Below, in pieces: positions 2,471-36,282 of a DNA stretch of 43,313 nucleotides. The DNA is taken from the NCBI GenBank assembly GCA_012720075.1, contig JAAXZE010000204.1, forward strand, positions 1-43,313. The letters are read 5' to 3'. The notes beneath the pieces were generated by a model. The model saw only the letters and a program-made list of their open reading frames with translations. It did not search any database and was not told the origin of the DNA. The stretch comes from Clostridia bacterium. Lineage in GTDB: Bacteria > Bacillota > Peptococcia > Peptococcales > BICA1-8. Position 1 is the first letter of the stretch. The number at the start of each line of letters is the position of its first letter. Made by a program: the position numbers and the translations under genes.

Positions 2471-2544
2471 AAGAACCATCTCCAGCAACAAATTTTTGGT
2501 TTTGATCACCTATAAATCTTATTCTACCATCCTACAACCTGGGT

Positions 2545-2830: not shown

Positions 2831-3044
2831 TTATTTATTTTTGTCAATTTGAATACGATTATAAGGTTAATAATAATATTTGTCAACATGTTAAAATTTT
2901 AGAAGAAAAAAGACAATTGGATATTTTTGTTCCCAGGTATATAAACCAAAAGGGGAAGAAGTCATATAATGCAGGATTATTTCCGGATTTGTAGAAATAC
3001 CAAAACTATTAAAAACTGGTAACAGTAAATGGGGAGGAGCGGCT

Positions 3045-14691: not shown

Positions 14692-14810
14692 ATTTTTAAG
14701 CTTTCATTTATGGTAGTGCCACATGGCGAAAATGTAATTAATATATTTGAAAAAATAGAAGGATTTGCCTTTTTTTTGAAGAATAAGAAGAATGAAACTA
14801 TATTTCAGTT

Positions 14811-14965
14811 ACGGCTCGCCGAGCCTATTATCTAAGTCCGGGCTGGAGGATATGGTTATAGGCCATTGTGGGTATAATGGGAAACTATTATGCCTCCTTT
14901 GGAAAAGGGGAGCGTTTTTATAGCGTTGTTTTGGGCTGACCTTTCCAAAGGTCAGCCTTATTTCT
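14811..14965 (+). promoter_or_regulatory. Moco/Tuco-like riboswitch candidate with terminator, in the leader of the sigma-54 activator gene
   Basis: CCGAG (14819-14823); stem GCCTAT/ATAGGC enclosing 11-nt tetraloop-receptor-like CTAAG...TATGG (14832-14836/14851-14855); ATAATGG-GAAA-CTATTAT tetraloop stem (14874-14891) directly followed by GCCTCC (14892-14897); terminator GGCTGACCTTT-CC-AAAGGTCAGCC and competing antiterminator CCTTTGGAAAAGG (14896-14908) with CCTTTCCAAAGG (14940-14951). Confidence 0.65.
14934..14963 (+). terminator. Terminator of the riboswitch-like leader
   Basis: 11-bp perfect stem GGCTGACCTTT/AAAGGTCAGCC followed by TTATTTCTCT. Confidence 0.7.
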
Positions 14966-15012: not shown

Positions 15013-17028
15013 ATGGGCAGTGCTACAAGGGATAGCCATGATAAAATCTATCTCCAATGGGAAAAGTTTATAAAATCCGGCGGGCAAGACCGATCCTTGG
15101 ATATTAGGGTCAAAATTTTGGAATCATGGAAAAGGTGCTTCCGTCAAAAAGTCGATCCCTATGATGAAAAAATCCACCGTTCTTTAAAGGGAAATAAACT
15201 AAATAAATTACTGCGGGATAATCAGTGGCTTATTGATATAGCTAAGCCCTTCATGGCCAATCTTCATAAGTTTGTTAAAGGGTCCGGTTTTGTGGTTGTG
15301 TTAACCGATGACAAGGGATATATTATGGAGTTGTTTACCGATGAAGGCACCAAACAAAACCCATTGACAAAAAATTTCTTTATCGGTGCCAGCTGGCGTG
15401 AAGAGGAAGCGGGTACTAATGCCATAGGAACGGCATTAGTTTTGGGGGAACCCATTCAAGTTTCCGGCGCGGAGCATTACTGTCAAAAACATCATTGTTT
15501 AACCTGTTCGGCTGCTCCCATTTTTGATACCAACGGAAAAATCATTGGTATTTTGGATATGTCGGGAGCATCCCATGCCGCTCATTTACATACCCTGGGA
15601 ATGGTTGTAGCAGCTGCCGAAGCTATTATGGCTCAGATTAAAATCAGACGGAAAAATTCCGAGTTAGCCTTAATAAACACCCGGTTGACCAATTTTTTTA
15701 ATATGGTATCTGACGGGGTTTTATTGGTTGACAAAGATGAAGTAGTAGTGGAATATAACCCAGCCGCCAAGGTTCTTCTGGGAAGGGAGAAACAAAACAT
15801 TATTGGAATTCCTGTTAAAAAACTGTTCGATTATCGTTCCTCGGTTCAAAGAGAGAAAATCGATATTAACCATCGTTACAGTGATGTAGAAATTATGGTT
15901 GAGACCAAGGATGGATTGTGTTGTTGCCTGGTTTCCGGTGAGCCTATCGTTAATGAGCGAGGTGAAGTGACCGGCGGTTTAATGATTTTGAGACCCATCA
16001 AACAAGTGCAAAATTTGGTCAATAGATTTAGTGGATATATGGCAGCTTTGGATTTTAATGATATTGTCGGAGAAAGCCCCGAAATACAGGAAGTTATTAG
16101 ACTGGCCAAATTAACCGCCAGTAGCAGTTCCAATGTTTTACTGCAGGGAGAAAGCGGGACCGGAAAAGAAATTTTTGCCCAAGCAATACACAATGGCAGT
16201 GAGCAAAGAAACGGACCGTTTATACCTGTTAATTGTGGAGCAATTCCCCGGGAACTGATTGGCAGCGAGTTATTCGGCTATGAAGAGGGAGCATTTACCG
16301 GGGCTAAAAGAGGCGGCAAGCCGGGAAAATTTGAATTAGCCAATGGCGGTACCCTTTTTCTGGATGAAATAGGGGATATGCCCTTAGATCAACAAACGGC
16401 TTTGCTCCGTGTAATACAAGAAAAAAAGGTAGCCCGTATCGGCAGTGACAAAATGATTCCCGTTAATGTTCGTCTGATATGTGCTACAAATAAAAATTTG
16501 CGCCAGGAAGTAGAAAAGGGAACTTTCCGGGAAGATTTGTTTTATAGACTGAATGTAATTTCTATTATAATTCCTCCATTGCGTAATCGGGTGTCGGACA
16601 TTCCATTGCTTTTTGAACATTTCTTACAAAAGTTGACCCGGGATTGGGGCTATAAATTTTATGTGGAACCGGAAGTGCTGGAATGTTTGAAGCGGTATTC
16701 CTGGCCGGGCAATGTAAGAGAATTGCAAAATATTGTGGAAAGGGCGGCCCTTCTGGCTGAAAACGGGATTATTACCGTTAGGAATTTACCTCCGGAGATT
16801 ATTGAGAGCTCCGGTCATTATTCATTGTCCTTGACATTAGCGAACTATTCCCACCAAAATATAAAATGCCGTCAAGAAAGACGGAAAACGGCCAATGAAA
16901 TAGAAAAATACAAAATTATTAATTTGCTAAACAGCTTTGGAGGTAATGTCAGTAAGGTCGCAAAAGAAATGGGGGTTTCCCGTAAAACCGTTTACAATAA
17001 GATGCGCATCTATTCCATCAAAAATTAA
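15013..17028 (+). CDS. Sigma-54-dependent transcriptional activator (AcoR-like; GAF-PAS-AAA+-Fis HTH)
   Basis: GESGTGKE, GAFTGAKRGGKPGKFELANGGTLFLDEIGDMPLDQQTALLRVIQ, C-terminal NVSKVAKEMGVSRKTVYNKMR; ORF track start is GTG 15004, ATG 15013 more likely. Confidence 0.92.
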   Translation: MGSATRDSHDKIYLQWEKFIKSGGQDRSLDIRVKILESWKRCFRQKVDPYDEKIHRSLKGNKLNKLLRDNQWLIDIAKPFMANLHKFVKGSGFVVVLTDDKGYIMELFTDEGTKQNPLTKNFFIGASWREEEAGTNAIGTALVLGEPIQVSGAEHYCQKHHCLTCSAAPIFDTNGKIIGILDMSGASHAAHLHTLGMVVAAAEAIMAQIKIRRKNSELALINTRLTNFFNMVSDGVLLVDKDEVVVEYNPAAKVLLGREKQNIIGIPVKKLFDYRSSVQREKIDINHRYSDVEIMVETKDGLCCCLVSGEPIVNERGEVTGGLMILRPIKQVQNLVNRFSGYMAALDFNDIVGESPEIQEVIRLAKLTASSSSNVLLQGESGTGKEIFAQAIHNGSEQRNGPFIPVNCGAIPRELIGSELFGYEEGAFTGAKRGGKPGKFELANGGTLFLDEIGDMPLDQQTALLRVIQEKKVARIGSDKMIPVNVRLICATNKNLRQEVEKGTFREDLFYRLNVISIIIPPLRNRVSDIPLLFEHFLQKLTRDWGYKFYVEPEVLECLKRYSWPGNVRELQNIVERAALLAENGIITVRNLPPEIIESSGHYSLSLTLANYSHQNIKCRQERRKTANEIEKYKIINLLNSFGGNVSKVAKEMGVSRKTVYNKMRIYSIKN

Positions 17029-17039
17029 GCTGCTTCCCT

Positions 17040-17105
17040 GAAAAAGTGTTACCTTAATGTAAAAAAAGTGTTACCAAATTTGCATTAAGGTAACACTTTT
17101 TTTAC
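17040..17105 (+). promoter_or_regulatory. Three phased GTGTTACC half-sites (candidate enhancer/UAS for the sigma-54 activator), also a 19-bp-stem terminator-like hairpin
   Basis: GTGTTACC at 17046 and 17068, inverted GGTAACAC at 17089; spacing 22 and 21 bp; stem AAAAAGTGTTACCTTAATG/CATTAAGGTAACACTTTTT with T tract. Confidence 0.6.
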
Positions 17106-17215: not shown

Positions 17216-17232
17216 TTGGCACATTTTTTGCA
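17216..17232 (+). promoter_or_regulatory. Sigma-54 (-24/-12) promoter
   Basis: TTGGCAC-ATTTT-TTGCA, matching TGGCAC-N5-TTGCW exactly; downstream of activator gene and upstream of the Mo-hydroxylase cluster. Confidence 0.8.
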
Positions 17233-17333
17233 TTTTTAAAATTATGGAATGACAAGTTTTCTTCTGCGTGGGATAACTTAATAGATCCTGCGGCTGAAAA
17301 AGAAATACGGTGCGTTAATTTTGTGCGGTTTTG

Positions 17334-17373
17334 TAGCAAAGCACTGGTTTCTTTTCGGTGCTTTGCTTTTTTG
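17334..17373 (+). terminator. Terminator/attenuator hairpin inside the leader between the sigma-54 promoter and the MoeA-like gene
   Basis: GCAAAGCAC...GTGCTTTGC followed by TTTTTT. Confidence 0.75.
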
Positions 17374-17439: not shown

Positions 17440-18465
17440 ATGAAAGCAGTACCGGTATATGAGGCTGTGGGGATGATTCTTTGCCATGATATCACGGAGA
17501 TCGTGCCCGGCAAGGTAAAGGGGAGGGCCTTCAAAAAAGGTCATATTGTAAGACAGGAGGATATACCTAAGCTGCTAAATCTTGGCAAGGAAAGACTTTA
17601 TGTCTGGGAAATGAATGAAAACGTCATTCATGAAGATGAGGCAGCAATAAGGATCGCTAAGGCGGTTGCCGGGCCCGTGGTTAATATTACCGAGCCTTCC
17701 GAAGGCAAAGTGGAACTGAAATCAGACATTACCGGTTTGCTTAAAATTAATACTTTGGCTTTGGAGGAAATTAACGATATTAATGAGATTGTAGTAGCAT
17801 CAATTCATTCCAATCAAATGGTGAAAAAAGGGGAAAAATTAGCCGGCTGCCGGGTAGTTCCCTTGATCATAGATAAAAAGAAAATTGAAGAAGTAGAAAG
17901 AATCGCCCAGTTGTATTTTCCTTTGTTTGAGGTTAAACCATTGAAATCCTTCAAGGTTGGAGTGGTGACAACGGGAAGCGAAGTTTACCATGGACGGATC
18001 GAAGATAAATTTGGCCCTGTTATCAGAAGAAAGGTTGAGGAAATGGGCAGCCGGTTTTTAAGGCAAATTTTTGCCAACGATAACGTCACCATGATTGCTG
18101 AAGGGATTCAGCAGTTGATTAGTGAAGGGGCGGAGTTGATTATTACAACGGGTGGGATGTCCGTTGACCCCGATGATGTAACTCCTGCCGGTATTAGAGC
18201 TGCCGGCGGCAAAGTTGTGGTTTATGGCGCTCCGGTCCTTCCCGGTTCCATGTTTATGCTGGCTTATATCGATGATGTACCTGTTTTGGGTTTGCCTGGG
18301 TGTGTAATGTACCATAGAACAACGGTTTTTGACCTGATTTTTCCGCGGATATTAGCAGGGGAAAAAATAACCCGTAAGGATGTAACCCGCTTGGCCCATG
18401 GTGGTTTATGCAAGGTATGTGATCCTTGTACCTATCCCCATTGCTCCTTTGGAAAAGGTTATTAA
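17440..18465 (+). CDS. MoeA/MogA-like molybdopterin-binding protein with C-terminal cysteine cluster
   Basis: VVTTGSEVYHGRIEDKFGPVI, ELIITTGGMSVDPDDVTPAGI, PVLPGSMFMLAY; C-terminal CKVCDPCTYPHC. Confidence 0.85.
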   Translation: MKAVPVYEAVGMILCHDITEIVPGKVKGRAFKKGHIVRQEDIPKLLNLGKERLYVWEMNENVIHEDEAAIRIAKAVAGPVVNITEPSEGKVELKSDITGLLKINTLALEEINDINEIVVASIHSNQMVKKGEKLAGCRVVPLIIDKKKIEEVERIAQLYFPLFEVKPLKSFKVGVVTTGSEVYHGRIEDKFGPVIRRKVEEMGSRFLRQIFANDNVTMIAEGIQQLISEGAELIITTGGMSVDPDDVTPAGIRAAGGKVVVYGAPVLPGSMFMLAYIDDVPVLGLPGCVMYHRTTVFDLIFPRILAGEKITRKDVTRLAHGGLCKVCDPCTYPHCSFGKGY

Positions 18466-18519: not shown

Positions 18520-21276
18520 ATGCTGAAAAAGGTCTTGAACATCAATGGTTTGCCCAGGACATTGATTGTAGACCCCGAAGCCAGTCTAGCTAAAGTATTG
18601 CGGGAACAGCTTCTCTTAACCGGCTGCAAAGTGGGCTGCAATCAGGGACATTGCGGAACGTGTTCTATCATCATGGATGGCGAGGTTGTTCGTTCTTGCA
18701 CCGTCAAAATGAAAAGGGTCCCCGACGAAGCCAGAATCACTACAATTGAAGGCTTGGCCACTCCTGATAACCTGCATCCGTTACAGGTGGCCTGGATGGC
18801 CCACGGCTGTGCTCAATGCGGTTTCTGCAGCCCTGGTTTTATCCTGTCGGCCAAAGTTCTTCTGGACAAAAACCCCAATCCTACCAGAGAAGAAGTTCGG
18901 GCTTGGTTCCAAAAGAATCGAAACGCCTGCCGTTGTACCGGCTACAAGCCATTAGTTGATGCCGTTATGGCTGCCGCCAAAGTAGTTCGCGGTGAAATGC
19001 GCAAGGAAGATTTGCTTTTCAAACCGGTAGGCAACAAAATCTACGGCACCACCTATCATCGTCCCTCCGCTCTGCAAAAAGTAACGGGAACCTGGGATTA
19101 TGGCGCCGATGTAAACCTGCAGATGCCTCCCGGAACCTTACGTCTGGCTTTGGTACAGGCAGAAGTATCTCATGCCATTATTAAAGGTATTGATACTTCT
19201 GAAGCAGAGAAAATGCCTGGAGTTTATAAAGTGATTACCCACAAAGACGTTAAAGGCAAAAACAGAATAACCGGTTTGATCACCTTCCCGACTAACAAAG
19301 GTGATGGCTGGGATCGGCCCATCCTTTGTGACGAGAAAGTATTCCAGTATGGTGACGCTATAGCCATTGTGGCTGCCGACACTGAAGAACACGCCCGGGC
19401 AGCGGCTAAAAAAGTAAAAGTTGATTTGGAAGTATTGCCGGCTTATATGAGCGCCCCTGCCGCTATGGAACCCGATGCCATTGAAATTCATCCCGGAACG
19501 CCTAATGTTTATTATGAACAAGGCATTGTCAAAGGTGAAGATACTAAGCCCATCATGGAAGATCCCGATGTGGTAACGGTAGAAGTCAATACTTACTGTA
19601 GCCGTCAGCCCCACCTGGTCTTGGAGCCTGACTGCGGTTGTGCCTATTTTGATGAAGAAGGTCGTTTGACCATTCACTCTAAGAGTATCGGTTTGCACTT
19701 GCATCACGCCATGATTTGCCCCGGTATCGGCATTGAACCGGAAAAATTACGGCTGGTGCAGAACCCGACCGGTGGTACCTTCGGTTACAAGTTTAGTCCC
19801 ACTAATGAAGCGTTATTGGGAGTAGCTGCATTAGCAACGGGAAGACCGGTAACCCTAAACTTTGATATGTACCAGAACATTACTTACACCGGTAAACGTT
19901 CACCGGGCTTTGTTAAATGTAAATTGGCCGCTAACAAAGAAGGAAAATTACTGGCTATGGAGACCGATTGGACTATTGACCACGGTCCCTACTCCGAATT
20001 TGGTGATTTATTGACATTAAGGCTGGCTCAGTTTATAGGTGCAGGGTATGACATTCCCAATATTCGAGGCAAAGGACGAACCGTATGTACCAACCATGCT
20101 TGGGGCTCGGCATTCCGCGCCTATGGTTCGCCGCAATCATTCCTGGCTTCGGAAATCGCCATGGATGAACTGGCCGAAAAATTGGGCATGGATCCCCTGG
20201 AACTCCGTTTGAAAAATGTTTATCGTCCTGGTTCAACAACTCCAACCCAACAAGAACCGGAAGTTTATTGCTTAGAAGAAATGCTTAACATACTGCGTCC
20301 TCGTTGGGAAGAAGCGAAAAAACGTTGTAAAGAGTTATCCACTCCGGAAAAGAAACGGGGTGTTGGTTTATCCATCGGTATGTACGGCTGCGGACTGGAC
20401 GGTCCCGATGGCTCTGAAGCATGGGTAGAGTTGACTAAAGACGGAGTTACCGTAGGTTGCAGTTGGGAAGATCATGGTCAAGGTGCAGACATAGGTGCGC
20501 TGACCCATGCCCATGAGACCCTGCGGCAGGCAGGTTTTAAACCGGAACAAATCAAGTTGGTCTTAAATGACATGGCCTATACTCCTAACAGCGGACCCGC
20601 CGGTGGAAGCCGTTCTAACGTAATGACCGGTAACGCTATTCGGGTAGGCTGCGAAATGTTACTAAACGCCATGCGTAAGCTTGACGGCACATTCCGTACT
20701 TATGAAGAAATGGTAGCAGAAAACATTCCTCTCCGCTATGAAGGAAAATGGGCTGCCTCCATGTGTACCCCCTGTGATCCTGAAACAGCTAAAGGTGAAC
20801 CATTCGGCAACTATGTTTACGAAGTATTTATGCCTGAAGTAGAAGTAGATATGAAAACCGGTAAAGTTACAGTGGTTAAATTCACAACCATTGTCGATGC
20901 CGGAGTAATTACCAATAGAACGGTTACAGACGGGCAAATTTACGGCGGCTTAGCCCAAGGTATTGGACTGGCTTTGAGCGAGGACTTTGAAGATCTGGAA
21001 AAACACACTAATTTAGTAAAATGCGGTCTCCCCTTTATCCAAGATGTTCCTGATGACATAGAAATAATCTATGTTGAGACTCCTCGGGCCACCGGACCAT
21101 ACGGCTCTTCCGGAATAGGCGAAGGTCCCTTGACTGCTCCGCATCCGGCCATATTAAATGCTATTTATAATGCCTGCGGTGTTCGGATTTACTCCGTACC
21201 TGCTTTGCCGGAAAAAGTCAAAGCCGGCTTGGAAGCTTTGGAAGCCAAAAAGAATGCTACAGCTGACAAAGAATAA
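18520..21276 (+). CDS. Molybdopterin-dependent aldehyde oxidoreductase (xanthine oxidase family; 2Fe-2S domains fused to Mo-binding domain)
   Basis: GCKVGCNQGHCGTCSIIMDG and CAQCGFCSPGFIL/CRCTGYKPLV 2Fe-2S motifs; large Mo-binding domain with GGTFGYKF, FRAYGSPQ, GPYGSSGIGEGPLTAPHPAILNAI. Confidence 0.93.
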   Translation: MLKKVLNINGLPRTLIVDPEASLAKVLREQLLLTGCKVGCNQGHCGTCSIIMDGEVVRSCTVKMKRVPDEARITTIEGLATPDNLHPLQVAWMAHGCAQCGFCSPGFILSAKVLLDKNPNPTREEVRAWFQKNRNACRCTGYKPLVDAVMAAAKVVRGEMRKEDLLFKPVGNKIYGTTYHRPSALQKVTGTWDYGADVNLQMPPGTLRLALVQAEVSHAIIKGIDTSEAEKMPGVYKVITHKDVKGKNRITGLITFPTNKGDGWDRPILCDEKVFQYGDAIAIVAADTEEHARAAAKKVKVDLEVLPAYMSAPAAMEPDAIEIHPGTPNVYYEQGIVKGEDTKPIMEDPDVVTVEVNTYCSRQPHLVLEPDCGCAYFDEEGRLTIHSKSIGLHLHHAMICPGIGIEPEKLRLVQNPTGGTFGYKFSPTNEALLGVAALATGRPVTLNFDMYQNITYTGKRSPGFVKCKLAANKEGKLLAMETDWTIDHGPYSEFGDLLTLRLAQFIGAGYDIPNIRGKGRTVCTNHAWGSAFRAYGSPQSFLASEIAMDELAEKLGMDPLELRLKNVYRPGSTTPTQQEPEVYCLEEMLNILRPRWEEAKKRCKELSTPEKKRGVGLSIGMYGCGLDGPDGSEAWVELTKDGVTVGCSWEDHGQGADIGALTHAHETLRQAGFKPEQIKLVLNDMAYTPNSGPAGGSRSNVMTGNAIRVGCEMLLNAMRKLDGTFRTYEEMVAENIPLRYEGKWAASMCTPCDPETAKGEPFGNYVYEVFMPEVEVDMKTGKVTVVKFTTIVDAGVITNRTVTDGQIYGGLAQGIGLALSEDFEDLEKHTNLVKCGLPFIQDVPDDIEIIYVETPRATGPYGSSGIGEGPLTAPHPAILNAIYNACGVRIYSVPALPEKVKAGLEALEAKKNATADKE

Positions 21277-21304
21277 TTTATAAAAAAATTATTAATAAAC
21301 CTAA

Positions 21305-21345
21305 AACGAAATGAATGTTCTTTCATTTCGTTTTAGGTTTCCTTT
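21305..21345 (+). terminator. Terminator-like perfect hairpin after the aldehyde oxidoreductase
   Basis: CCTAAAACGAAATGAA-loop-TTTCATTTCGTTTTAGG. Confidence 0.7.
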
Positions 21346-21435
21346 TAAAAGAACAAATTTAGTCAGAAATTAGTTATGGTGAAAGGTTATCCAGAAGGAG
21401 TATTACCACCCATTAATAAAGAAAGGGGGAAAAAA

Positions 21436-23766
21436 ATGGATCAAAACTTGTTACGCCAGCGGGAAGCCAAGTGTGTTCAAGAAGAACCCCCTGGATGTAC
21501 TACTGCTTGTCCTGTCCATGTAGATGTTCGGGGAATAGTGGATGCCATTAGAAAAAATGATTATAAAACAGGTTTATTGTTATTCAATAAAGTGGTGCCT
21601 TTTCCGCGGATTATCAGCAGGATCTGCGACCAAGTTTGTCAAAAGGGCTGTAAGCGAAAGGAAATTGACGAGGCAATTGCTGTCAATGCTTTAGAAAGAA
21701 TTTGTGTTGATAACATGGGAGAACCCAAGGCCAGTTCTATGGCAATAAAAGCCAAAAAGGATAGGGTAGCGGTAATAGGCGGCGGCCTTAGTGGGTTAAC
21801 GGCCGCATTGGAATTGGCCAAAAAGGGGTATCTGGTAGTACTTTATGAAGCCACGGACCGTTTAGGAGGAAGCCTTTGGCATACTCCCGAAGAAAAACTG
21901 CCGCGGCGATTGATAGAAGATGATTTTATCCAACTCAAAAATAATCCTTTTATTGAAATAATCTACAACACCCCAATTAGCAATGACCGGAGCTCAAATC
22001 CCGCTTTTGACAGTATCTGCGCTGATTTTTCCGCAGTTTATTTAGGGATAGGTAGTAAAGAGGTCCTTTCTTTGAATTTAGGTCTTGATGTTGACCAAGA
22101 GGGCAAGGTGGTAATTGATCCCTTAACCTTGCAAACCAGTCATCCTAAAGTCTTTGCCGGCGGCAGCCTTTATCTTGGCGAAAAGGGAAAATCGCCTATA
22201 ACCTCCATATCCCATGGAAAAATTGCCGCCAATTCCATTGACAGACTTTTGCAAAAAGCTTCTTTAACGGCCAACCGGGATAAAGAAGGCAGCTATCCCA
22301 CCCTTCTTTATACTAATGTAAAGGGGATAGAACCCCAGGAAGCAGTAAAATGTTCAGACCCAATTAAGGGTTATAACAGGGAAGAGGCCTTAAAAGAGGC
22401 CCAACGCTGTATAATGTGTGAATGTCTGGAATGTGTAAAAGTTTGTGAATACCTGGCCCATTACCGTTCATATCCCAAACGTTATGTCCGGGAAGTATAT
22501 AATAACCTATCCATTGTAATGGGCATTCACCACGCTAATAAAATGATAAATTCCTGCAGCCTGTGCGGTTTGTGTGAAGAAGTGTGTCCCAACGGATTAA
22601 ATATGGGGGAAATATGCCAGGAAGCCAGGCGGATAATGGTAAAAAGAGGCAAGATGCCGCCATCGGCTTATGATTTTGCCTTAAGGGATATGGCTTTTAG
22701 CACCGGCGAAAAGTTTGTCTTAAATAAACATCAACCGGGTTTTAATGTTAGCAGAATGGTTTTCTTTCCAGGATGCCAGCTTAGTGGTTCATCTCCCCAG
22801 TATGTAAGAAAAATTTATAAATACCTCTGCGAAAAAATTGACGGTGGTGTCGGTCTCAGTCTGGGCTGCTGCGGTGCTCCCGCTGACTGGGCAGGTCAGG
22901 AAGAGTTATTTTCGGAAAACCTGGAAAATATCAAAAGTCGTTGGCTGGAGCTAGGAAAGCCGAAAATTATCACCGCTTGTCCTACCTGTTTCAAAATATT
23001 TAAGGAGCGGTTGCCCCAAGCAGAAGTGGATTATATTTGGCGTATTTTTGAACAGTATGGTCTGCCGCCCATGGCTAAGAGTGAACCTAGAAAACTGGTA
23101 ATCCATGATGCTTGTACGACCAGGCATGAAGACTGCTTGCATGAAAGCATTAGAAATATTTTGCTAAAATTAGGGCACCAAATAGAAGAACTGGAAAACA
23201 GTCGCCAGACTACCGGGTGTTGCGGCTACGGGGGATTAATGATGTTTGCCAACAGGGAGTTGGCTCAACAAGTGGTAGACCGGCGGATCAAGGAAAACCA
23301 GGCTGATTATCTGGTATACTGTGCCATGTGCCGGGATAATTTTGTCGCCCAAGGGAAAAAAACCTATCACCTGCTGGATTTAATTTTTGGAGAAAATGAA
23401 CAGGATCGTGCCCGGCAATTGGGACCGGATTTTTCTCAAAGGCATGAAAACAGGGCCAGGTGTAAGATTGCCTTCCTTAAGGAGATTTGGGGTGAAAATG
23501 TGGCTGAGGAGAAAATGGATATTAAGCTGATTATTCCTGAAGAAGCAAGAAGAATTTTAGACGACAGAAGAATTCTGATTGAAGACGTCGCTAAAGTCAT
23601 TCAGTATGCGGAAGAAACCGGCAATCGTTTAAAAGATACTTTGACCGGTCGTTATATTGCTTACTTTAAACCTGTTGCGGTAACTTACTGGGTGGAATAT
23701 TCTCCTCAGGAAGAGGGCTTTTTAGTGCATAACGCTTATAGTCATAGGTTGGAAATAAGTGGATAG
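21436..23766 (+). CDS. Fused pyridine-nucleotide-disulfide oxidoreductase / Fe-S dicluster / HdrD-like CCG-domain protein
   Basis: GCTTACPVHVDVRG, VAVIGGGLSGLTAALELAKKGYLVVLYEA, CSLCGLCEEVCPNGLNMG, CCG-domain motifs FFPGCQLSG...LGCCGAPADW, CPTC, TTGCCGYGGLM; start at ATG 21436 after AAGGGGG. Confidence 0.85.
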   Translation: MDQNLLRQREAKCVQEEPPGCTTACPVHVDVRGIVDAIRKNDYKTGLLLFNKVVPFPRIISRICDQVCQKGCKRKEIDEAIAVNALERICVDNMGEPKASSMAIKAKKDRVAVIGGGLSGLTAALELAKKGYLVVLYEATDRLGGSLWHTPEEKLPRRLIEDDFIQLKNNPFIEIIYNTPISNDRSSNPAFDSICADFSAVYLGIGSKEVLSLNLGLDVDQEGKVVIDPLTLQTSHPKVFAGGSLYLGEKGKSPITSISHGKIAANSIDRLLQKASLTANRDKEGSYPTLLYTNVKGIEPQEAVKCSDPIKGYNREEALKEAQRCIMCECLECVKVCEYLAHYRSYPKRYVREVYNNLSIVMGIHHANKMINSCSLCGLCEEVCPNGLNMGEICQEARRIMVKRGKMPPSAYDFALRDMAFSTGEKFVLNKHQPGFNVSRMVFFPGCQLSGSSPQYVRKIYKYLCEKIDGGVGLSLGCCGAPADWAGQEELFSENLENIKSRWLELGKPKIITACPTCFKIFKERLPQAEVDYIWRIFEQYGLPPMAKSEPRKLVIHDACTTRHEDCLHESIRNILLKLGHQIEELENSRQTTGCCGYGGLMMFANRELAQQVVDRRIKENQADYLVYCAMCRDNFVAQGKKTYHLLDLIFGENEQDRARQLGPDFSQRHENRARCKIAFLKEIWGENVAEEKMDIKLIIPEEARRILDDRRILIEDVAKVIQYAEETGNRLKDTLTGRYIAYFKPVAVTYWVEYSPQEEGFLVHNAYSHRLEISG

Positions 23767-23777
23767 GGGCGAGAAAG

Positions 23778-23984
23778 ATGAACAAAGAAAACAAGCAGCA
23801 AATTAATATTATTTGTGATAAATGCGGTATTCCTCTTACGCCGGGAAAGGTTACCTTATCCTATTTAGGCAGCAGTTTTCCTGTTGAACTGCCTAAATGC
23901 TCCCAATGCGGGCTGGTGTTTATCCCTGAAGAATTGGCCCGAGGCAAAATGGATCAGGTAGAAAAAGCGCTGGAAGATAAATAA
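23778..23984 (+). CDS. Small CxxC...CxxC redox/zinc-ribbon protein (DVU_1557-like)
   Basis: CDKCGIPLTPGKV...LPKCSQCGLVFIPEELARGKM, position in cluster. Confidence 0.7.
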   Translation: MNKENKQQINIICDKCGIPLTPGKVTLSYLGSSFPVELPKCSQCGLVFIPEELARGKMDQVEKALEDK

Positions 23985-24003
23985 TTGGGAGCGGTTAAGG
24001 TTT

Positions 24004-24684
24004 ATGAAACTTATAGACGGAGTTTTGCGTCCGGGGGGACTGGAAATTACCCAAAGACTTTTAGAATATTGCCAATTTAAATCCGGTGACAGGGTGGTTG
24101 ATTTAGGCTGCGGTGTAGGTACCACTGTGGAGTACCTCCGAAATGTCCATTGCCTGGAAGCAAGGGGTATTGATTTGTCCAAAGAAGCGGTGGAAGCGGG
24201 AAAAAATCGCTGTCCTGATTTGCCGTTAATAGAAGCTTCTGCTGAGGCACTGCCTTTTGTTAACCATTCCCTGGATGGTGTTCTGGCGGAATGCAGTTTA
24301 TCGGTAATGCAATATAATAGCAGGGTCCTGGCGGAAATTAATCGAGTTCTGGTAAAAGGGGGAAAATTGGCCGTTTCTGATTTGTATATTCGGGATGAAG
24401 GTACTCATTCACCATCATGGTTGGGAAAGGAAATTAATTGTCTGACCGGAGCAAAAAATTATGCTCAGTTAGAACAGATTTTAAAAAACCATAATTTTAA
24501 GATTTTGGTTTGGGAAGACCGGTCGGAATGCTTAAAAGAGTTTGTGGTTCGCTGCATAATGGAATACGGTTCAATAGAAGGATTTTGTCCATGGTGTTCC
24601 AAGGGGGATAACGACGGTCAGACTTCTCCCTTGAAAAAATCTTCAATAGGATATTTTTTGCTGGTGGCCCAAAAAACCGACTAA
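24004..24684 (+). CDS. SAM-dependent class I methyltransferase (TrsM / DVU_1556-like)
   Basis: VVDLGCGVGTTVEYL, ARGIDLSKEAVEAG, LIEASAEALPF; C-terminal CPWC. Confidence 0.75.
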   Translation: MKLIDGVLRPGGLEITQRLLEYCQFKSGDRVVDLGCGVGTTVEYLRNVHCLEARGIDLSKEAVEAGKNRCPDLPLIEASAEALPFVNHSLDGVLAECSLSVMQYNSRVLAEINRVLVKGGKLAVSDLYIRDEGTHSPSWLGKEINCLTGAKNYAQLEQILKNHNFKILVWEDRSECLKEFVVRCIMEYGSIEGFCPWCSKGDNDGQTSPLKKSSIGYFLLVAQKTD

Positions 24685-24732
24685 AGGCCTGAAATGGAAA
24701 ATTAAAGAGTATTGGGGAGGTAAGCGCGGACA

Positions 24733-25185
24733 ATGATGAATGAGGAGTTCTTTCGGATGGTAGAACTGTCCTACCAGGGCTTTTATTGCAGTCAAATATT
24801 AATAATGGACGCCTTGGAAAACCTCAACAAAAGTAACGAAGATTTGGTTCGAGCCATGGCCGGACTGGCGGGAGGAATCGGCTTTTCCGGAAAAAACTGC
24901 GGTTCCCTTACCGGGGGGGCTTGTGTACTGGCCTTGTATGCCGGGAAAGGTTCTCCTCAGGAGAAGGAAGACCCACGGCTCAATTTAATGATAAGTGAGC
25001 TGGTTCAATGGTTTGAAGAGGAGTGGGGAAAAACTTACGGCAGTATTGATTGCCAGGATATCCTGGAAGATAATCCCCAAAACAGGCTGCAGCGCTGCCC
25101 GCAGATAATTTTCCAAACTAATGAAAAAATCAAAGAAATACTTACCGCCAATGGATATAATTTGTCAGGAGAATTGGAGGAATAG
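24733..25185 (+). CDS. C-GCAxxG-C-C family protein (DVU_1555-like)
   Basis: GFYCSQ...MAGLAGGIGFSGKNCGSLTGGACVLAL...C...C pattern. Confidence 0.8.
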   Translation: MMNEEFFRMVELSYQGFYCSQILIMDALENLNKSNEDLVRAMAGLAGGIGFSGKNCGSLTGGACVLALYAGKGSPQEKEDPRLNLMISELVQWFEEEWGKTYGSIDCQDILEDNPQNRLQRCPQIIFQTNEKIKEILTANGYNLSGELEE

Positions 25186-25186
25186 T

Positions 25187-26248
25187 ATGAATAAACTGTG
25201 GGAACAAATGGTAAACCTTTTATCCTCAGGAAAAAGTTTTGTTGTAGCAACCCTATTTGATAAATCGGGTTCCGCTCCCCGTGTCTCCGGCGCCAAGATG
25301 ATAATTAAAAGCGACGGCTCAATTGCGGGAACCATAGGCGGCGGTAGATTGGAAGGGGAAATAAGGGAATTGGCCAAAGATATTTTTGAAACTAAACGTC
25401 CCCAGATCCGACTTATCAGCCTGACGGGAGCCGATGCAGCCCAGATGGAGATGATTTGCGGCGGAACGGTGAAAGTTTTGGTAGATTATATTGAAGCCTT
25501 GGATCCGGTAAACCTGGAAATCTGCAGGGATATTGTCGATGTTATTAATAATAGGGGAAAGGCATGGTTAATAACTGCCTTAGGTACGGAAGGCCACAAT
25601 AAGGATAAAATACAGCGGTGTCTGGTAAAAGAAAATGATGCCTTGATCGGACAATTGGACTGTGACCAGGAGTTTTTAAAGAAGCTTATTTCCGGTCCGG
25701 CTAAAATAAGTATCCATTCGGAAACTTTAGAAGATCAGCGCATTTTTGTCGAACCAATACAAATAACCAAAACATTGTATATTTTCGGCGCCGGGCATGT
25801 TGCTCAACAAATTGCGCCGCTGGCGGAAAAGGTTGGTTTTAAGACCGTTGTCCTTGATGACCGGCAGGAATACGCCAATAAAGAGCGTTTCCCGGGTTCC
25901 GAAATAATTTTATTGGAATCTTTAGCCGACCCTCTGCCCCAATTGGATATTGACGAGGACAGTTACTTGTGCATAGTGACCAGGGGCCATCTCCATGATA
26001 AAAGGGTTTTAGAACAGGTGTTAAGAACTCCTGCTGCTTATATCGGTATGATCGGCAGTACAAGAAAACGGGATAAAGTTTATGAAAAACTGGAAGAACA
26101 GGGCTTTACTAAAGAAGAATTAAGGCGGGTCCATAGTCCCATCGGCCTTGAGATTCTGGCGGAAACTCCGGAAGAGATTGCGGTAAGCATTGTTGCCGAG
26201 TTAATTAAAGTGCGGGCGGAAAAAGAAAAATGTCAAAAGAAAAATTAG
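25187..26248 (+). CDS. xdhC: XdhC-family molybdenum hydroxylase maturation protein
   Basis: VATLFDKSGSAPRVSGAKMIIKSDGSIAGTIGGGRLEGEI; FGAGHVAQQIAPLAEKVGFKTVVLDDRQEYAN; YIGMIGSTRKRD; start ATG 25187 with GGAGG upstream. Confidence 0.9.
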   Translation: MNKLWEQMVNLLSSGKSFVVATLFDKSGSAPRVSGAKMIIKSDGSIAGTIGGGRLEGEIRELAKDIFETKRPQIRLISLTGADAAQMEMICGGTVKVLVDYIEALDPVNLEICRDIVDVINNRGKAWLITALGTEGHNKDKIQRCLVKENDALIGQLDCDQEFLKKLISGPAKISIHSETLEDQRIFVEPIQITKTLYIFGAGHVAQQIAPLAEKVGFKTVVLDDRQEYANKERFPGSEIILLESLADPLPQLDIDEDSYLCIVTRGHLHDKRVLEQVLRTPAAYIGMIGSTRKRDKVYEKLEEQGFTKEELRRVHSPIGLEILAETPEEIAVSIVAELIKVRAEKEKCQKKN

Positions 26249-27363
26249 CGGCTTTAATATTAGCCGCCGGCTATTCATCACGAATGGGGGAGTTTAAACC
26301 TTTGCTTCCTTTAAACGGTGAACCGGTAATTGCCCGGACCGTTTCCTGTTTTCGTGCCGCAGGCATTACCGATGTTAGAGTTGTGGCAGGCTACCGGGCC
26401 AATGATTTATTGCCCCTATTGAATAGGTTGGGAGTAAAAACAATAATTAATGAAAAATTTGATTGCGGCATGTTTTCTTCAGTCCTGACCGGTCTACAGA
26501 CTTTTGACAGTGAGCTGGAAGGTTTCTTTTTAATGCCCGGGGACATACCCCGGGTTAAAAGTCAGACCATAGAGACACTTATTGCAAAATATAAACAGTC
26601 CGACTACCGTGTTTTTTATCCCACATATCAAGGCAGGCGGGGTCATCCCCCTTTAATTACCAGGCCTTGCTTTAGCCGGATTTCGGCCCAGGATTATTCC
26701 GGAAACCTGCGCTTGGTGCTGCAGGAATTTGAAAATGAGTCTTGTGATGTTGAATGTACTGATGAAGGGGTTTTAATGGATATGGATACCCCGGAAGACT
26801 ATCAAAAAATTATCGGGGCGGCATTAAAAAATAAGATACCGACAGTTTCCGATTGTCAGCGGTTGTTCTCCCGGTATCAAGTGCCCGAAGGGATAATGAG
26901 GCACGGCCGGGCTGTAGCCGATGGAGCCCAAAAAATAGCCCGGCATTTGAATGAACGGAGAGGCTTTATGCTGGATATTGAGCTCATAACTGCCGCCGGG
27001 CTGCTCCATGATATTGCCAAGGGCCAGCCCAACCATGCTCAAAAGGGGGCAGCCATTCTTGTGGAAGAAGGTTTTCCGGCTGTGGCCCAGGTAGTAGAGG
27101 CCCATATGGACTTAAGTATCGATTATGGGAAGGACCATCCAATAGATGAAAAAGCGATTATTTACTTAGTAGATAAAATTATTCACCAAGAAGATATTGG
27201 AAGTATTGAAGGACGATTTTCTAAGGCTTTTGAAAAATATGCTGACAATGAAGAAATTCTGCAAAATATTAAAAAGAGACAAGAACAGGCCCTTTTTCTT
27301 AAAGAGAGAATTGAAGATTTATTAGATATTGAAAATTTATATTCGTTTTTAGCAAAAAAATAG
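26230..27363 (+). CDS. MocA/MobA-like nucleotidyltransferase fused to HD domain (DVU_1551-like)
   Basis: ALILAAGYSSRMGEFKPLLPLNGEPVIART; MPGDIPRV; C-terminal HD motif AAGLLHDIAKGQPNHAQKGA. Confidence 0.85.
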   Translation: MSKEKLAALILAAGYSSRMGEFKPLLPLNGEPVIARTVSCFRAAGITDVRVVAGYRANDLLPLLNRLGVKTIINEKFDCGMFSSVLTGLQTFDSELEGFFLMPGDIPRVKSQTIETLIAKYKQSDYRVFYPTYQGRRGHPPLITRPCFSRISAQDYSGNLRLVLQEFENESCDVECTDEGVLMDMDTPEDYQKIIGAALKNKIPTVSDCQRLFSRYQVPEGIMRHGRAVADGAQKIARHLNERRGFMLDIELITAAGLLHDIAKGQPNHAQKGAAILVEEGFPAVAQVVEAHMDLSIDYGKDHPIDEKAIIYLVDKIIHQEDIGSIEGRFSKAFEKYADNEEILQNIKKRQEQALFLKERIEDLLDIENLYSFLAKK

Positions 27364-27409
27364 TTTTGTCTCTGAAAACAGGCCAAGTTTTTTATAAAGG
27401 AGTAAAGCT

Positions 27410-28798
27410 ATGGCAAAAGAGATCATTTTGGGAAATACCGAAAGTGTTTGCCCCCAATGCTTAAAAAGGATTCCTGCTCAAAAGGTTATTGTTGGTGCAG
27501 ACGTATATTTAACAAAAGAATGTCCGGAGCACGGCAAATTTCGGGTTCTGATTTGGAAGGGCAGTGAGCCGCCTTATGCTGATTGGGCCAATACAAAGGT
27601 GCCTGCAGCACCAAAAGTGTGTTTAACCAAAGTTGAGCAGGGTTGCCCCTTTGATTGTGGTCTTTGTCCGGAGCATCGGCGGGATACTTGCTGCTTGCTG
27701 CTGGAGGTGACTAAGGGTTGTAACCTCCATTGTCCCATTTGTTTTGCCGATGCCGATAAGGCTTGTGACAGCGACCCCGATTTGCAGGAAATTGAAAGCT
27801 GGTATAAAAGCCTATCAGAAAACGGTCTTCCTTATAATATTCAGATTTCCGGAGGGGAACCAACCGTAAGGGATGACTTGCCCCAAATAATTAAGCTTGG
27901 CCGGAAATATGGTTTTTCTTACATCCAGTTAAATACCAACGGTTTGCGGATGGGACGTGAACCCCGTTTTGTAAAACAGCTTAAGGAGGCCGGTCTAAGC
28001 TCCGTATTTTTGCAGTTTGACGGAACTAATGATGAAATTTATAAACAAATACGGGGGAAGGCTTTATTGGATGTAAAAACTGCGGCCGTGGAAAACTGCG
28101 CTAAAGAGGGGATTGGGGTAGTTCTTGTGCCCACCCTGGTTCCCGGTGTTAATATGGATAATATCGGAGAGATTATCAACTTTGCTGTTTCCTGTATGCC
28201 TGCTGTAAGAGGAGTCCATTTTCAGCCCATAAGCTATTTCGGCCGTTATCCCATGAGTCCTCCAGAGACCCGAATAACCATCCCGGAAATATTACGAGCT
28301 ATCGAAAATCAGACTAACGGTAAAATTAAGGCCGCCAATTTTCTGCCCCCTGGAGCGGAAAATGCCTACTGCTCTTTTCACGGCAATTTTATTTTAACTG
28401 AAGAAGGAGAACTTAAACCCTGGAACTCTTTGCAATCCGGTAAATCATGTTGTCAGCCTATAGATGCCAGAGAAGGGGTAAATAAATCCAGGGATTTTGT
28501 GGCAAGACAATGGGCGGGTCCCGGAAATCCGACTTTGGAAAACGGCTGTGGCTGCTCCTGCCCAAATCAAATAGATGAGTTGTCTGAAATAAATGTGGAT
28601 AGTCTGGATCGGTTTTTGACCCGGGTTCGGGATTTTACCCTGGCTATTTCGGGAATGGCCTTCCAGGATGCTTGGTCCCTGGATCTGGACCGCCTGCGGG
28701 ACTGCATTGTTCATGTCTTTAGTGCTGATAAAAGAATTATTCCTTTTTGCGCTTATAATCTAACGGCGCAAAACGGCAACAGCCTTTATCGTAAATAG
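27410..28798 (+). CDS. Radical SAM protein (TrsS-like)
   Basis: CPQCLKRIPA; CPFDCGLCPEHRRDTCCLLLEVTKGCNLHCPICFADA radical SAM CxxxCxxC; QISGGEPTVRDDL. Confidence 0.85.
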   Translation: MAKEIILGNTESVCPQCLKRIPAQKVIVGADVYLTKECPEHGKFRVLIWKGSEPPYADWANTKVPAAPKVCLTKVEQGCPFDCGLCPEHRRDTCCLLLEVTKGCNLHCPICFADADKACDSDPDLQEIESWYKSLSENGLPYNIQISGGEPTVRDDLPQIIKLGRKYGFSYIQLNTNGLRMGREPRFVKQLKEAGLSSVFLQFDGTNDEIYKQIRGKALLDVKTAAVENCAKEGIGVVLVPTLVPGVNMDNIGEIINFAVSCMPAVRGVHFQPISYFGRYPMSPPETRITIPEILRAIENQTNGKIKAANFLPPGAENAYCSFHGNFILTEEGELKPWNSLQSGKSCCQPIDAREGVNKSRDFVARQWAGPGNPTLENGCGCSCPNQIDELSEINVDSLDRFLTRVRDFTLAISGMAFQDAWSLDLDRLRDCIVHVFSADKRIIPFCAYNLTAQNGNSLYRK

Positions 28799-28808
28799 AG
28801 GTGGAGTA

Positions 28809-30146
28809 ATGGAAATTAAGGAAATGGCCCCTATATCCCTTGATAACTGGATCAAGGAAAAGATAGGTTTTAACACCGAAAGGATTTCCCTGCAGGATAT
28901 AAAAGAATATCAATTAAAGAAGATAAGGCAAACCATTGATTATGTTTGCCAAAACAGCACCTTTTATCGTAAGCGTTTAGAGGGTTATTCGGGTCAGAGT
29001 CTAAACCGGTTGGACGATTTGGCAAAACTCCCCTTTACCTATCCTCAAGATTTAAGGAGTAACGCTCTGCAAATGCTCTGTGTGTCCCAAAGTGATATTG
29101 AGCGGGTAGTCACCCTTGATAGTTCCGGTACAACCGGGGAGCCAAAAAGATTATATTTTACCGCCGATGATCAGGGGTTAACCGTTGATTTTTTTATGCA
29201 GGGCATGTCTCTCTTGACTTCTCCGGGGGAACGGGTTTTAATCCTTTTACCCTGTGAACGGCCCGGGGGCATTGGAGATTTATTATTTAAGGCTTTGGTG
29301 CGGCTGGGTGCCGAACCTATAAAGCACGGTCCGGTGACCGGTTTGTCTGATGCTCTGCAGAAACTATCCGAAACCCGGGCTTCCGTTTTGGTGGGCATAC
29401 CGATTCAAGTATTAGCTTTGGCCAAATATTGGCAATTAAAAGAGAGCACAATTCCTTTGAACCTTAAACGAATGGTGCTAAGCACTGATTATGTTTCCCA
29501 GGCGGTTATTCAGGAAATCAAGAGAATTTGGGGCAGTGAGGTTTTCCGATATTATGGAATGACCGAGATGGGACTGGGGGGAGGCATCGAATGCCGGCAT
29601 CATCAAGGCTATCATTTGTATATGGGGGATTTTGTCTTTGAGATTGTCGATCCCCTTACAGGAGATGTTTTACCTCCTGGGCAATATGGTGAAGTTGTTT
29701 TTACTACCCTGACCAGGAGAGGAATGCCTCTGGTGCGATACCGCACCGGAGATATCTCGCGGTTTCTGCCCGGAAACTGCCCGTGTGGTTCGGTATTGCC
29801 CAGGCTGGATAATATCAAGGCCAGAAAAACGGGAATGGTTAAACTGACTGAGGATAGTTTTATCACAATAGCCCAATTGGATGAAATTTTGCTGGCTGTA
29901 CCCGGAGTTATTGATTTTACCGCAGTTGTTTCCAATCTTCCCGGAAAGCCGACTTTGGAAATAGAATTAATAATGTTGGACCGGAACATTGATCAATGGC
30001 AAGTTATAAATGAACTTTGCCAAACTGAGCCAATTGGAAGGGCATACTTAAAAGGAGCGCTGAAACTAAATCTAAAAGCAACCTATTATTCCGAAAAGAC
30101 CGTACTTCAAACCGGAAAAAGAACCATCAAAGTATTAACATCTTAG
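28809..30146 (+). CDS. AMP-dependent (phenylacetate-CoA ligase-like) ligase (DVU_1553-like)
   Basis: LDSSGTTGEPKRLYFT, YYGMTEMGLGGGIEC, VRYRTGDISRFLPGNCPCGSVLPRL. Confidence 0.8.
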   Translation: MEIKEMAPISLDNWIKEKIGFNTERISLQDIKEYQLKKIRQTIDYVCQNSTFYRKRLEGYSGQSLNRLDDLAKLPFTYPQDLRSNALQMLCVSQSDIERVVTLDSSGTTGEPKRLYFTADDQGLTVDFFMQGMSLLTSPGERVLILLPCERPGGIGDLLFKALVRLGAEPIKHGPVTGLSDALQKLSETRASVLVGIPIQVLALAKYWQLKESTIPLNLKRMVLSTDYVSQAVIQEIKRIWGSEVFRYYGMTEMGLGGGIECRHHQGYHLYMGDFVFEIVDPLTGDVLPPGQYGEVVFTTLTRRGMPLVRYRTGDISRFLPGNCPCGSVLPRLDNIKARKTGMVKLTEDSFITIAQLDEILLAVPGVIDFTAVVSNLPGKPTLEIELIMLDRNIDQWQVINELCQTEPIGRAYLKGALKLNLKATYYSEKTVLQTGKRTIKVLTS

Positions 30147-30166: not shown

Positions 30167-30805
30167 ATGGACCAAAAAACCATTTATCTGGTCAGGCATG
30201 GAAAAATTAAAACAGATACCCAAAGGTGTTATATCGGCCAAATTGATTTACCCTTAACCGGGGAAGGTTTTCAGCAGGCAAAAGCTTTAAGCAATAAATT
30301 GGGCCGGCTTAAAATTGAGGCCGTGTATTCCAGTGACTTGTCCCGTTCCAGGGATACCGCCAAAGAAATAGCTCTGAAGCATGGGTTGATTCCTCAGGAA
30401 AGAGCCGATTTGCGGGAAATTAGTTTGGGCAAATGGGAAGGGGTGACTTTTGCCGAAGTATCAACCCGTTATCCGGAAGAATTTAAACGGCGCGGGGAAG
30501 ATATCGGGTATTTCAGACCGCCGGGGGGAGAAAGTTTTGCCGATTGCAGCCAAAGAATAGTGGCTGCTTTTCAGGACATCCTGAAAACACCCTTTCAAAA
30601 TATTGTGATAGTCGGTCATGCCGGAATAAACCGGGTATTGATTTGTCATGTGCTGGGACTGCCTTTGGACAATCTTTTCAGGATATCCCAAGATTATGGC
30701 TGCTTAAATGTAATAATTGCCGGAAAATTTGGTTATCGGTTAAAGCTGCTTAATGCGCCGGTCTTTTCAAAAGAGACTGTAAATGAAAATCAAGAGGAAG
30801 GATGA
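30167..30805 (+). CDS. Histidine phosphatase family protein (CobC/phosphoglycerate mutase-like)
   Basis: IYLVRHGKIKTD, YSSDLSRSRDTAKEIA, IVGHAGINRVLI. Confidence 0.9.
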   Translation: MDQKTIYLVRHGKIKTDTQRCYIGQIDLPLTGEGFQQAKALSNKLGRLKIEAVYSSDLSRSRDTAKEIALKHGLIPQERADLREISLGKWEGVTFAEVSTRYPEEFKRRGEDIGYFRPPGGESFADCSQRIVAAFQDILKTPFQNIVIVGHAGINRVLICHVLGLPLDNLFRISQDYGCLNVIIAGKFGYRLKLLNAPVFSKETVNENQEEG

Positions 30806-34550: not shown

Positions 34551-34625
34551 TTTTATCTTGCTAGAAAAAACTATTGCTATTTATTAAATATTATAATATT
34601 ATATACTTGCAAACTTAATTTAATG

Positions 34626-34767
34626 TCTCCGAGGTTGTAACTCTAAGGATAATAATCTATGAGCTGCAATCATGGGTTTCTCCGGAAACGGAGAAGCCTC
34701 CCATAATGGAAAGGAGAAGTATAGCATATCGTCCTCCTCACCCTCTCCTTTTAGGAGAATTTTTTTT
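34626..34767 (+). promoter_or_regulatory. Second Moco/Tuco-like riboswitch candidate with terminator, upstream of aldehyde dehydrogenase
   Basis: CCGAG (34629-34633); stem GGTTGTA/TGCAATC enclosing CTAAG...TATGA receptor-like pair (34643-34647/34658-34662); TTCTCCG-GAAA-CGGAGAA (34678-34695) directly followed by GCCTCC (34696-34701); antiterminator AAAGGAGA (34710-34717)/TCTCCTTT (34744-34751) overlapping terminator TCTCCT-TTT-AGGAGA-T8. Confidence 0.62.
34744..34767 (+). terminator. Terminator of the aldehyde dehydrogenase leader
   Basis: TCTCCTTTTAGGAGAATTTTTTTT. Confidence 0.8.
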
Positions 34768-34857
34768 GCACCGATTTTTTTAATTAGGAGGGAAGAGATA
34801 GAAAGAAAATTGATTTTTTGAGGGATAATAAAATATCATTTAGTGGGGTGTGGTAAA

Positions 34858-36282
34858 ATGAAAAATTATATGATGTATATTGGCGGTCAATGGGTTGACA
34901 CAGCTAATAAAAAAGAAGTAATCAACAAATATACCGGTGAGCCTTTTGCCACTATAGCTCAGGCCAGTTTAGAAGACGTTGAGAAGGCTGTAAAATCTGC
35001 CAAGAATTCTTTCAATACGGTAAAATTAAGCCCCTATCAACGTTATGAAGTATTATATAAAACAAGCAGGCTGTTACTGGAACGCAAAGAAGAACTGGCC
35101 CAAATACTCTGCCTGGAGGTTGGAAAGCCCATCGGCGATAGCCGTGTTGATGTGGAAAGAGCGGCTCAGACATTTGAAATAGCTGCTGAAGAAGCCAAAA
35201 GAATTCATGGAGAAATGGTACCGGTTGAAGCAACGCCCGGTTCGGAAAACAGAATGGCTTTTACAATCCGGGTGCCTGTTGGAGTGGTTTGTGCCATAAC
35301 TCCCTTTAACGTACCTCTAAATCTTGTTGCCCATAAAGTGGCTCCGGCCATTGCCGCCGGTAATACTGTTGTATTGAAGCCTACCCAGGAAACTCCCATA
35401 GTAGCCGCTAAGCTTGTGGAATTAATGTTGGAAGCCGGTTTGCCCAAAGAACATATTAATTTAATATATGGAAGCGGCTCGGTTATCGGTGAAGCATTGC
35501 TGCAAAACCAAGATATAAACTTTTATAGCTTTACCGGAAGTCCTGCAGTAGGAGAAAGAATTAAACAGGTTATTGGTTTAAGAAAATGCACATTAGAGTT
35601 AGGAAGTAACTCCGCGGTAATAGTTCACGAAGATGCTCCGGATATTAAAAAAGCCGCTGTCTTGTGTGCCCAAAGAAGTTTTGCCAATGCAGGACAGGTA
35701 TGTATATCGGTGCAAAGGATTTATGTTCATGAAAATATTTATGAACAATTCTTAAATGAGATGAAAACCTATACCGAAACTTTAGTAGTCGGTGACCCAA
35801 TGGATGAAAGAACAAGTGTCGGTCCAATGATAAGTGAAAAAGAGGTGGAAAGAATTGACCAATGGGTTAAGGAGGCCATCCAACAAGGTGCCAAACTTGT
35901 GACCGGAGGGGAAAAAGTTGGTACACGGTTATATAAACCGACAATTTTAAGTGATGTTAAGAAGGATATGAAGGTTGTTTGTATGGAAACCTTTGCCCCC
36001 ATTGCCGTTGTTGTTCCATATAAAGATATTGATGAAGCCATTGCTTATACCAATGATTCCGAGTTTGGTCTACAAGCCGGGATTTTCACCTCCAGTCTCA
36101 ATATTGCTATGAAGGCCGCAAAAGAAATACAAACCGGCGGGGTAATTATCAATGATACCTCCATGTATCGGGCCGATGCAATGCCTTACGGCGGAGTTAA
36201 GAAGAGCGGCACCGGTAAAGAAGGACCCAAATATGTAATTGAGGAAATGACTGAGGAGAAAATTATTGTATTCAACCTTTAA
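34858..36282 (+). CDS. NAD(P)-dependent aldehyde dehydrogenase family protein
   Basis: PFNVPLNLVAHKVAPAIAAGNTVVLKPT, FTGSPAVGERIK, LELGSNSAVIV, FANAGQVCISVQRIYVH, METFAPIAVV; start at ATG 34858 after GGGGTG. Confidence 0.92.
   Translation: MKNYMMYIGGQWVDTANKKEVINKYTGEPFATIAQASLEDVEKAVKSAKNSFNTVKLSPYQRYEVLYKTSRLLLERKEELAQILCLEVGKPIGDSRVDVERAAQTFEIAAEEAKRIHGEMVPVEATPGSENRMAFTIRVPVGVVCAITPFNVPLNLVAHKVAPAIAAGNTVVLKPTQETPIVAAKLVELMLEAGLPKEHINLIYGSGSVIGEALLQNQDINFYSFTGSPAVGERIKQVIGLRKCTLELGSNSAVIVHEDAPDIKKAAVLCAQRSFANAGQVCISVQRIYVHENIYEQFLNEMKTYTETLVVGDPMDERTSVGPMISEKEVERIDQWVKEAIQQGAKLVTGGEKVGTRLYKPTILSDVKKDMKVVCMETFAPIAVVVPYKDIDEAIAYTNDSEFGLQAGIFTSSLNIAMKAAKEIQTGGVIINDTSMYRADAMPYGGVKKSGTGKEGPKYVIEEMTEEKIIVFNL

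Follow-up and report, generated by a model that had tools for sequence, protein, structure and literature searches.

In a 43,313-nucleotide stretch of DNA from a Clostridia bacterium (contig JAAXZE010000204.1; the whole stretch is called the window here), an RNA of the Moco/Tuco riboswitch class (RF01055) that lacks stem P3 precedes the gene of a sigma-54 activator, termed REG. We consider it quite likely from the sequence that this RNA works by transcription attenuation, that it is off with cofactor, and that it controls REG and through REG a sigma-54-dependent gene cluster around a molybdopterin-dependent aldehyde oxidoreductase (AOR), which would replace tungsten-dependent aldehyde oxidation. 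Known targets of Moco/Tuco riboswitches are cofactor synthesis, transport and cofactor enzymes. New here is a dedicated sigma-54 activator as a predicted target, and this in distant lineages.

A P3-lacking Moco/Tuco aptamer precedes REG

The leader and its gene comprise the following features:
14776..14804, + strand: sigma-A-like promoter TTGAAG-17-TATATT with a predicted start near 14811 (consensus scan, 9/12)
14805..14926, + strand: P3-lacking Moco/Tuco aptamer, RF01055 (51.9 bits, gathering score 36; P2/P4 covariation)
14896..14908, + strand: predicted antiterminator 5' arm CCTTTGGAAAAGG, overlapping the conserved 3' core of the aptamer (pairs with 14940-14951, -14.3 kcal/mol)
14934..14957, + strand: intrinsic terminator hairpin, 5' arm and loop of which contain the antiterminator 3' arm 14940-14951 (-18.0 kcal/mol; terminator scan)
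15013..17028, + strand: REG, a GAF-PAS-AAA(GAFTGA)-Fis sigma-54 activator, ATG start, AAGGCGG upstream (PF00158, PF01590, PAS, PF02954)

The whole window was scanned against Rfam. Three matches exceeded the gathering score, a T-box and two RF01055 aptamers. The T-box leader (2574-2834, minus strand, 137 bits) lies before an aminotransferase-like gene (1379-2509, minus strand). The aptamer ahead of REG matched with an E-value of 1.1e-9 for the whole window and covered the model over its full length (1-135). No competing family came near its own cut-off at this leader, and an unrelated riboswitch class was rejected on this ground. A first-pass annotation, made from the sequence alone, had assigned the leader to the Moco/Tuco class and had proposed a covariance search with competing families as well as a covariation analysis; both came out in its favor. 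Across 45 RF01055 relatives 16 of the 20 predicted pairs in P2 and P4 had compensatory changes, and the leader folded better than shuffled sequences (z -3.6).

The elements on which that assignment was based are all in place: CCGAG, the CUAAG/UAUGG 11-nt tetraloop receptor in P2, a P4 capped by the GNRA loop GAAA, and GCCUCC directly after P4. A 3' GGAAA core is also present, and P1 contains some non-standard pairs. P3 is missing; in the RF01055 alignment its positions are deleted and a five-base linker, AUUGU, is found instead. The first-pass annotation had placed the feature at 14811-14965. The element is real, but the Rfam aptamer starts at 14805, and transcription is predicted to start near 14811. 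Sites like TTGAAG-17-TATATT were no commoner in this region than in shuffles; the main argument for the promoter is its position.

On paper, the leader is an OFF switch

The 13-nt arm 14896-14908 includes the conserved 3' core of the aptamer, and its pairing with 14940-14951 beat shuffles (p 0.016). The latter segment is also part of the terminator, as its 5' arm and loop. In folds of the growing transcript (co-transcriptional truncations) the antiterminator was favored at 14950; from 14957 on the best fold contained aptamer and terminator. The mutually exclusive antiterminator and terminator claimed initially are thus recovered. Antiterminator complementarity was present in three of three REG leaders, with differing sequences (duplex p 0.016, 0.018 and 0.021 against mononucleotide shuffles). 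In these leaders aptamer and terminator are compatible; aptamer and antiterminator exclude each other. The T run of the window's terminator is interrupted (TTATTTCTCT).

Because the 3' core of the aptamer can pair with the 5' arm of the terminator, an OFF switch is predicted; on paper, and by complementarity, REG would be off with cofactor and made at cofactor scarcity. With cofactor bound, that of tungsten more likely than that of molybdenum, the aptamer would keep its 3' core, the antiterminator could not form, the hairpin 14934-14957 would terminate and REG would not be made. With scarce cofactor the antiterminator would form and REG would be transcribed.

The opposite polarity, in which bound cofactor promotes REG so that the cofactor-dependent oxidoreductase is made only with cofactor present, is intuitive, as the AOR itself requires molybdopterin cofactor. 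We regard it as improbable since in three of three REG leaders the 3' core is consumed by the antiterminator, and the aptamer can coexist with the terminator but not with the antiterminator. A degenerate passenger would be a functionless leader that is carried along, with REG effectively constitutive. Such a view would accommodate that the REG leader has the lowest Rfam score among the three RF01055 RNAs of its genome, and that no RF01055 RNA precedes REG in G005 and UBA5324. It is very improbable, however, considering that receptor, tetraloop, core and the matched terminator/antiterminator are all intact and that the same placement is found in genome G098 and ahead of a distant REG in genome G134.

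REG and its predicted target promoter

Downstream of REG the following features were identified, all on the + strand:
17045..17097: GTGTTACC half-sites, two in direct and one in inverted orientation; probable REG site (UAS), possibly also a REG terminator (conservation)
17217..17232: predicted sigma-54 promoter TGGCACATTTTTTGCA (exact consensus match, the only one in the window)
17296..17370: putative second attenuator, antiterminator 5' arm 17296-17313, terminator 17336-17366 and T run (five leaders, four genomes)
17440..18465: MoeA-like protein of 341 aa, whose gene opens the cluster
18520..21276: molybdopterin-dependent aldehyde oxidoreductase, NF045668 (1666 bits, cut-off 1100)
21376..30146: AOR maturation genes, i.e. 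NF045663, DVU_1556 methyltransferase, DVU_1555, XdhC-type factor, DVU_1551 NTP transferase, TrsS radical SAM and DVU_1553 ligase (all above NCBIfam cut-offs)
30167..30805: histidine phosphatase, kept at the cluster end

REG has GAF and PAS domains, a sigma-54 AAA domain with GAFTGA (PF00158, 238.9 bits) and a Fis-type DNA-binding domain (PF02954), i.e. the AAA/GAFTGA-Fis combination of sigma-54 activators. The GAF, PAS, AAA and Fis helix-turn-helix arrangement is shared with AcoR/DhaR/PrdR-type activators. In contrast to these, REG expression is placed behind a riboswitch, and the curated NCBIfam cut-offs for DhaR (440.6 versus 551) and PrdR (411.5 versus 795) were not reached; both identities were rejected. 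Relatives of REG precede Mo-type AOR clusters in the window, UBA3933, UBA5324 and CTSoil_075, and tungsten AOR genes in Sporomusa, Pelosinus and Syntrophomonas; others, by eye, precede acetoin-dehydrogenase-like genes. Going by these gene neighbors, REG looks like an aldehyde/acetoin-type regulator.

The exact match to the sigma-54 consensus (TGGCAC-N5-TTGCW) lies between REG and the next gene, and most relatives of REG likewise have a -24/-12 site behind them. Repeats of the type GTGTTAC/GTAACAC, exact or nearly so, are located 80-175 bp upstream of the -24 site in the window, G005, UBA5324 and G098, and the repeat region is conserved in G005. The inverted repeat is the probable binding site of REG. 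That REG acts on the cluster via UAS and -24/-12 site is supported by conservation of both in G005, UBA5324 and G098, in line with the first-pass view that the sigma-54 activator governs a cluster of the Mo-hydroxylase type. REG would sense a signal of its own, probably an aldehyde-related metabolite via GAF/PAS, bind the half-sites and activate the promoter at 17217, thus turning on the MoeA-like/Mo-AOR maturation cluster.

Riboswitch and activator are combined in other lineages

Riboswitch-before-activator layouts are also found in at least two further lineages of bacteria. G098 has a REG with 72% identity to the window's, and ahead of it a P3-less RF01055 RNA (59.0 bits) with a strong terminator. 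Behind this REG come mod-type transporter genes, then the UAS, TGGCATGATACTTGCT, the attenuator, the MoeA-like gene (75%) and the AOR (84%). In G134 a P3-less RNA (74.0 bits; locus L279, 15044-15163, minus strand) lies ahead of a 51% REG relative, a copy which in the REG tree branches outside the starred clade that contains window and G098. Divergent from it is an NAD-aldehyde dehydrogenase gene, preceded by a TGGCATGGATATTGCT sigma-54 site and then a 68.4-bit P3-less RF01055 RNA with terminator (15464-15581, plus strand). Should REG act on that promoter, the switch would control the activator as well as its target, and a coherent feed-forward loop would result. Among 149 surveyed RF01055 RNAs that of the window was the only one ahead of a sigma-54 activator; this count understates the frequency, as the survey covered mainly high-scoring RNAs and the G098 and G134 cases were outside the sample.

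Three wirings of the AOR cluster

All main components of the DVU_1551-1559-type AOR maturation cluster (NCBIfam NF045663-NF045669) were above cut-off in the window, encoded at 18520-30146 behind the MoeA-like gene. Control appears to run through REG/sigma-54 and the attenuator, whereas in G183 and G264 the Moco RNA would act directly: P3-less RF01055 RNAs immediately precede the MoeA-like gene, the AOR and the rest of the cluster. In G001, G002, G053, G055 and G112 a Moco RNA is located before a MoeA-like gene and contains P3 wherever the P3 test could be read. The riboswitch-REG-sigma-54 wiring was found in the window and G098; REG and sigma-54 without riboswitch in G005/UBA3933 and UBA5324. 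Directly upstream of the close REG relatives in G005, UBA5324, SL1-B47, CTSoil_075, Pelosinus and Syntrophomonas STD2 no Moco RNA was detected. Because G005, a close relative, has REG and cluster without any RF01055 RNA, the circuit can evidently do without the riboswitch.

In Sporomusa malonica the RNA comes first, then the tungsten AOR, then REG. There, Moco RNAs (L083 7990-8099 and 14475-14585) lie before two near-identical tungsten AOR genes; REG is 112 nt behind the first, and the transcript may be shared.

A putative second attenuator is conserved before the AOR cluster

Past the sigma-54 site lies GAAAAAGAAATACGGTGC (17296-17313), which is able to base-pair with a terminator hairpin (17336-17366) over the hairpin's 5' arm and loop. 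This pairing is kept in five leaders of four genomes: the window (17296-17370), G005 (L047 7015-7095), UBA5324 twice (L080 12255-12329 and about 15645-15740) and G098 (L264, minus strand, near the MoeA-like start). The antiterminator beat shuffles in all five (p<=0.001). Compensatory changes were GAAATAC/TTTCTTT to GGAATAC/TTTCCT and GCAC/GTGC to GCGC/GCGC. A pattern search in 399 genomes returned two such leaders and one spurious site inside an apparent reading frame; Rfam returned only noise for 17244-17370. Conservation thus points to an unreported attenuator between sigma-54 promoter and AOR cluster.

Tungsten cofactor is the better guess for the ligand

The main text of Regulski et al. 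(2008; PMC2408646) proposes that the P3-lacking subclass senses the tungsten cofactor; direct ligand binding could not be shown there. Core sequence, P2 receptor, P4 GAAA loop and a terminator-type platform are common to that motif and the REG leader. The targets given are biosynthesis, transport and cofactor-using enzymes, and by a word search of the main text neither a transcriptional regulator or activator nor an aldehyde dehydrogenase is named as a target. In our 149-RNA sample tungstate-transporter genes followed 15 P3-less versus 1 P3-containing RNAs, ModA-type genes 2 versus 10 (Fisher p 5e-5; genes assigned from sequence motifs, uncorrected for relatedness among the genomes), in agreement with that paper. 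By eye, the aptamers nearest to the window's in the alignment precede tupB-like genes (G001/G002). From transporter counts and tupB-like neighbors, the REG-leader aptamer would more likely bind the tungsten than the molybdenum cofactor. One tungsten oxidoreductase of AFOR type, together with a ferredoxin-like partner, is encoded in the window's own genome; a TupA query against this genome gave no match. P3-less RNAs were also found ahead of two ModA-type genes and of MoeA-like genes; therefore absence of P3 is no proof of tungsten specificity. The layout could be used to test the proposal that RNAs without P3 sense the tungsten cofactor.

Aldehyde dehydrogenase genes behind RNAs of the same class

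Farther downstream the window contains, on the + strand:
34615..34732: second P3-lacking RF01055 riboswitch (72.3 bits)
34744..34767: terminator TCTCCT-TTT-AGGAGA and T run, with a 5' arm that is complementary to GAAAGGAGA of the aptamer (sequence, folds; p 0.15 for the duplex taken alone)
34843..36282: pterin-independent aldehyde dehydrogenase of NAD type (PF00171), start codon probably the ATG at 34858

Besides the window, RF01055 RNAs ahead of NAD-aldehyde dehydrogenases were found in G134 (L279) and G264 (L258), and apparently in G308 (L260), there by a scan for sequence motifs in which the standard receptor was optional. An OFF switch before pterin-independent enzymes fits a replacement of cofactor-dependent aldehyde oxidation at cofactor scarcity. 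B12 riboswitches precede B12-independent isozymes (metE, nrdAB), i.e. there too an OFF switch controls a cofactor-independent replacement enzyme, as proposed here for the aldehyde dehydrogenase. The ligand class differs, however, and in the window replacement would also run through an activator one step up.

The likely purpose, then, is that a shortage of tungsten cofactor turns on alternative aldehyde-oxidising enzymes in place of tungsten-dependent oxidation, probably the whole aldehyde-oxidising gene set via REG. Going further, P3-less switches may form a Tuco-sensing regulon for isofunctional replacement: they would silence the activator and its target (a feed-forward arrangement explicit in G134), Mo- or NAD-dependent aldehyde oxidation would be expressed only at tungsten-cofactor shortage, and the attenuator would be a third checkpoint of the AOR cluster. 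We advance this extended proposal tentatively. A serious rival, though on balance an unlikely one, is plain feedback on cofactor handling. The RNA would sense total Moco/Tuco without choice of metal, and surplus cofactor would lower REG and so shut genes for cofactor handling (MoeA-like, MocA-like NTP transferase, XdhC). Cofactor-maturation genes are indeed within the cluster, P3-containing as well as P3-less RNAs precede MoeA-like genes, and a P3-less RNA likewise belongs to the moeA/moaA operon of this genome. Plain feedback leaves unexplained, however, why the same RNA class precedes NAD-aldehyde dehydrogenases (window, G134, G264), enzymes that have no part in making the cofactor and do not use it. 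The replacement reading offers a model for how anaerobes choose among tungsten-, molybdenum- and NAD-dependent aldehyde oxidation.

Other Moco RNAs were encountered in the course of the survey. By eye, those of L109 and L125 (G048, UBA5324) are about 200-500 bases before MarR-like regulator genes, and L109 has two in series. Tandem and divergent arrays occur in L103/L122 (G057:C37), L178 (G125) and L259 (2134-2435 and 18729-19002).
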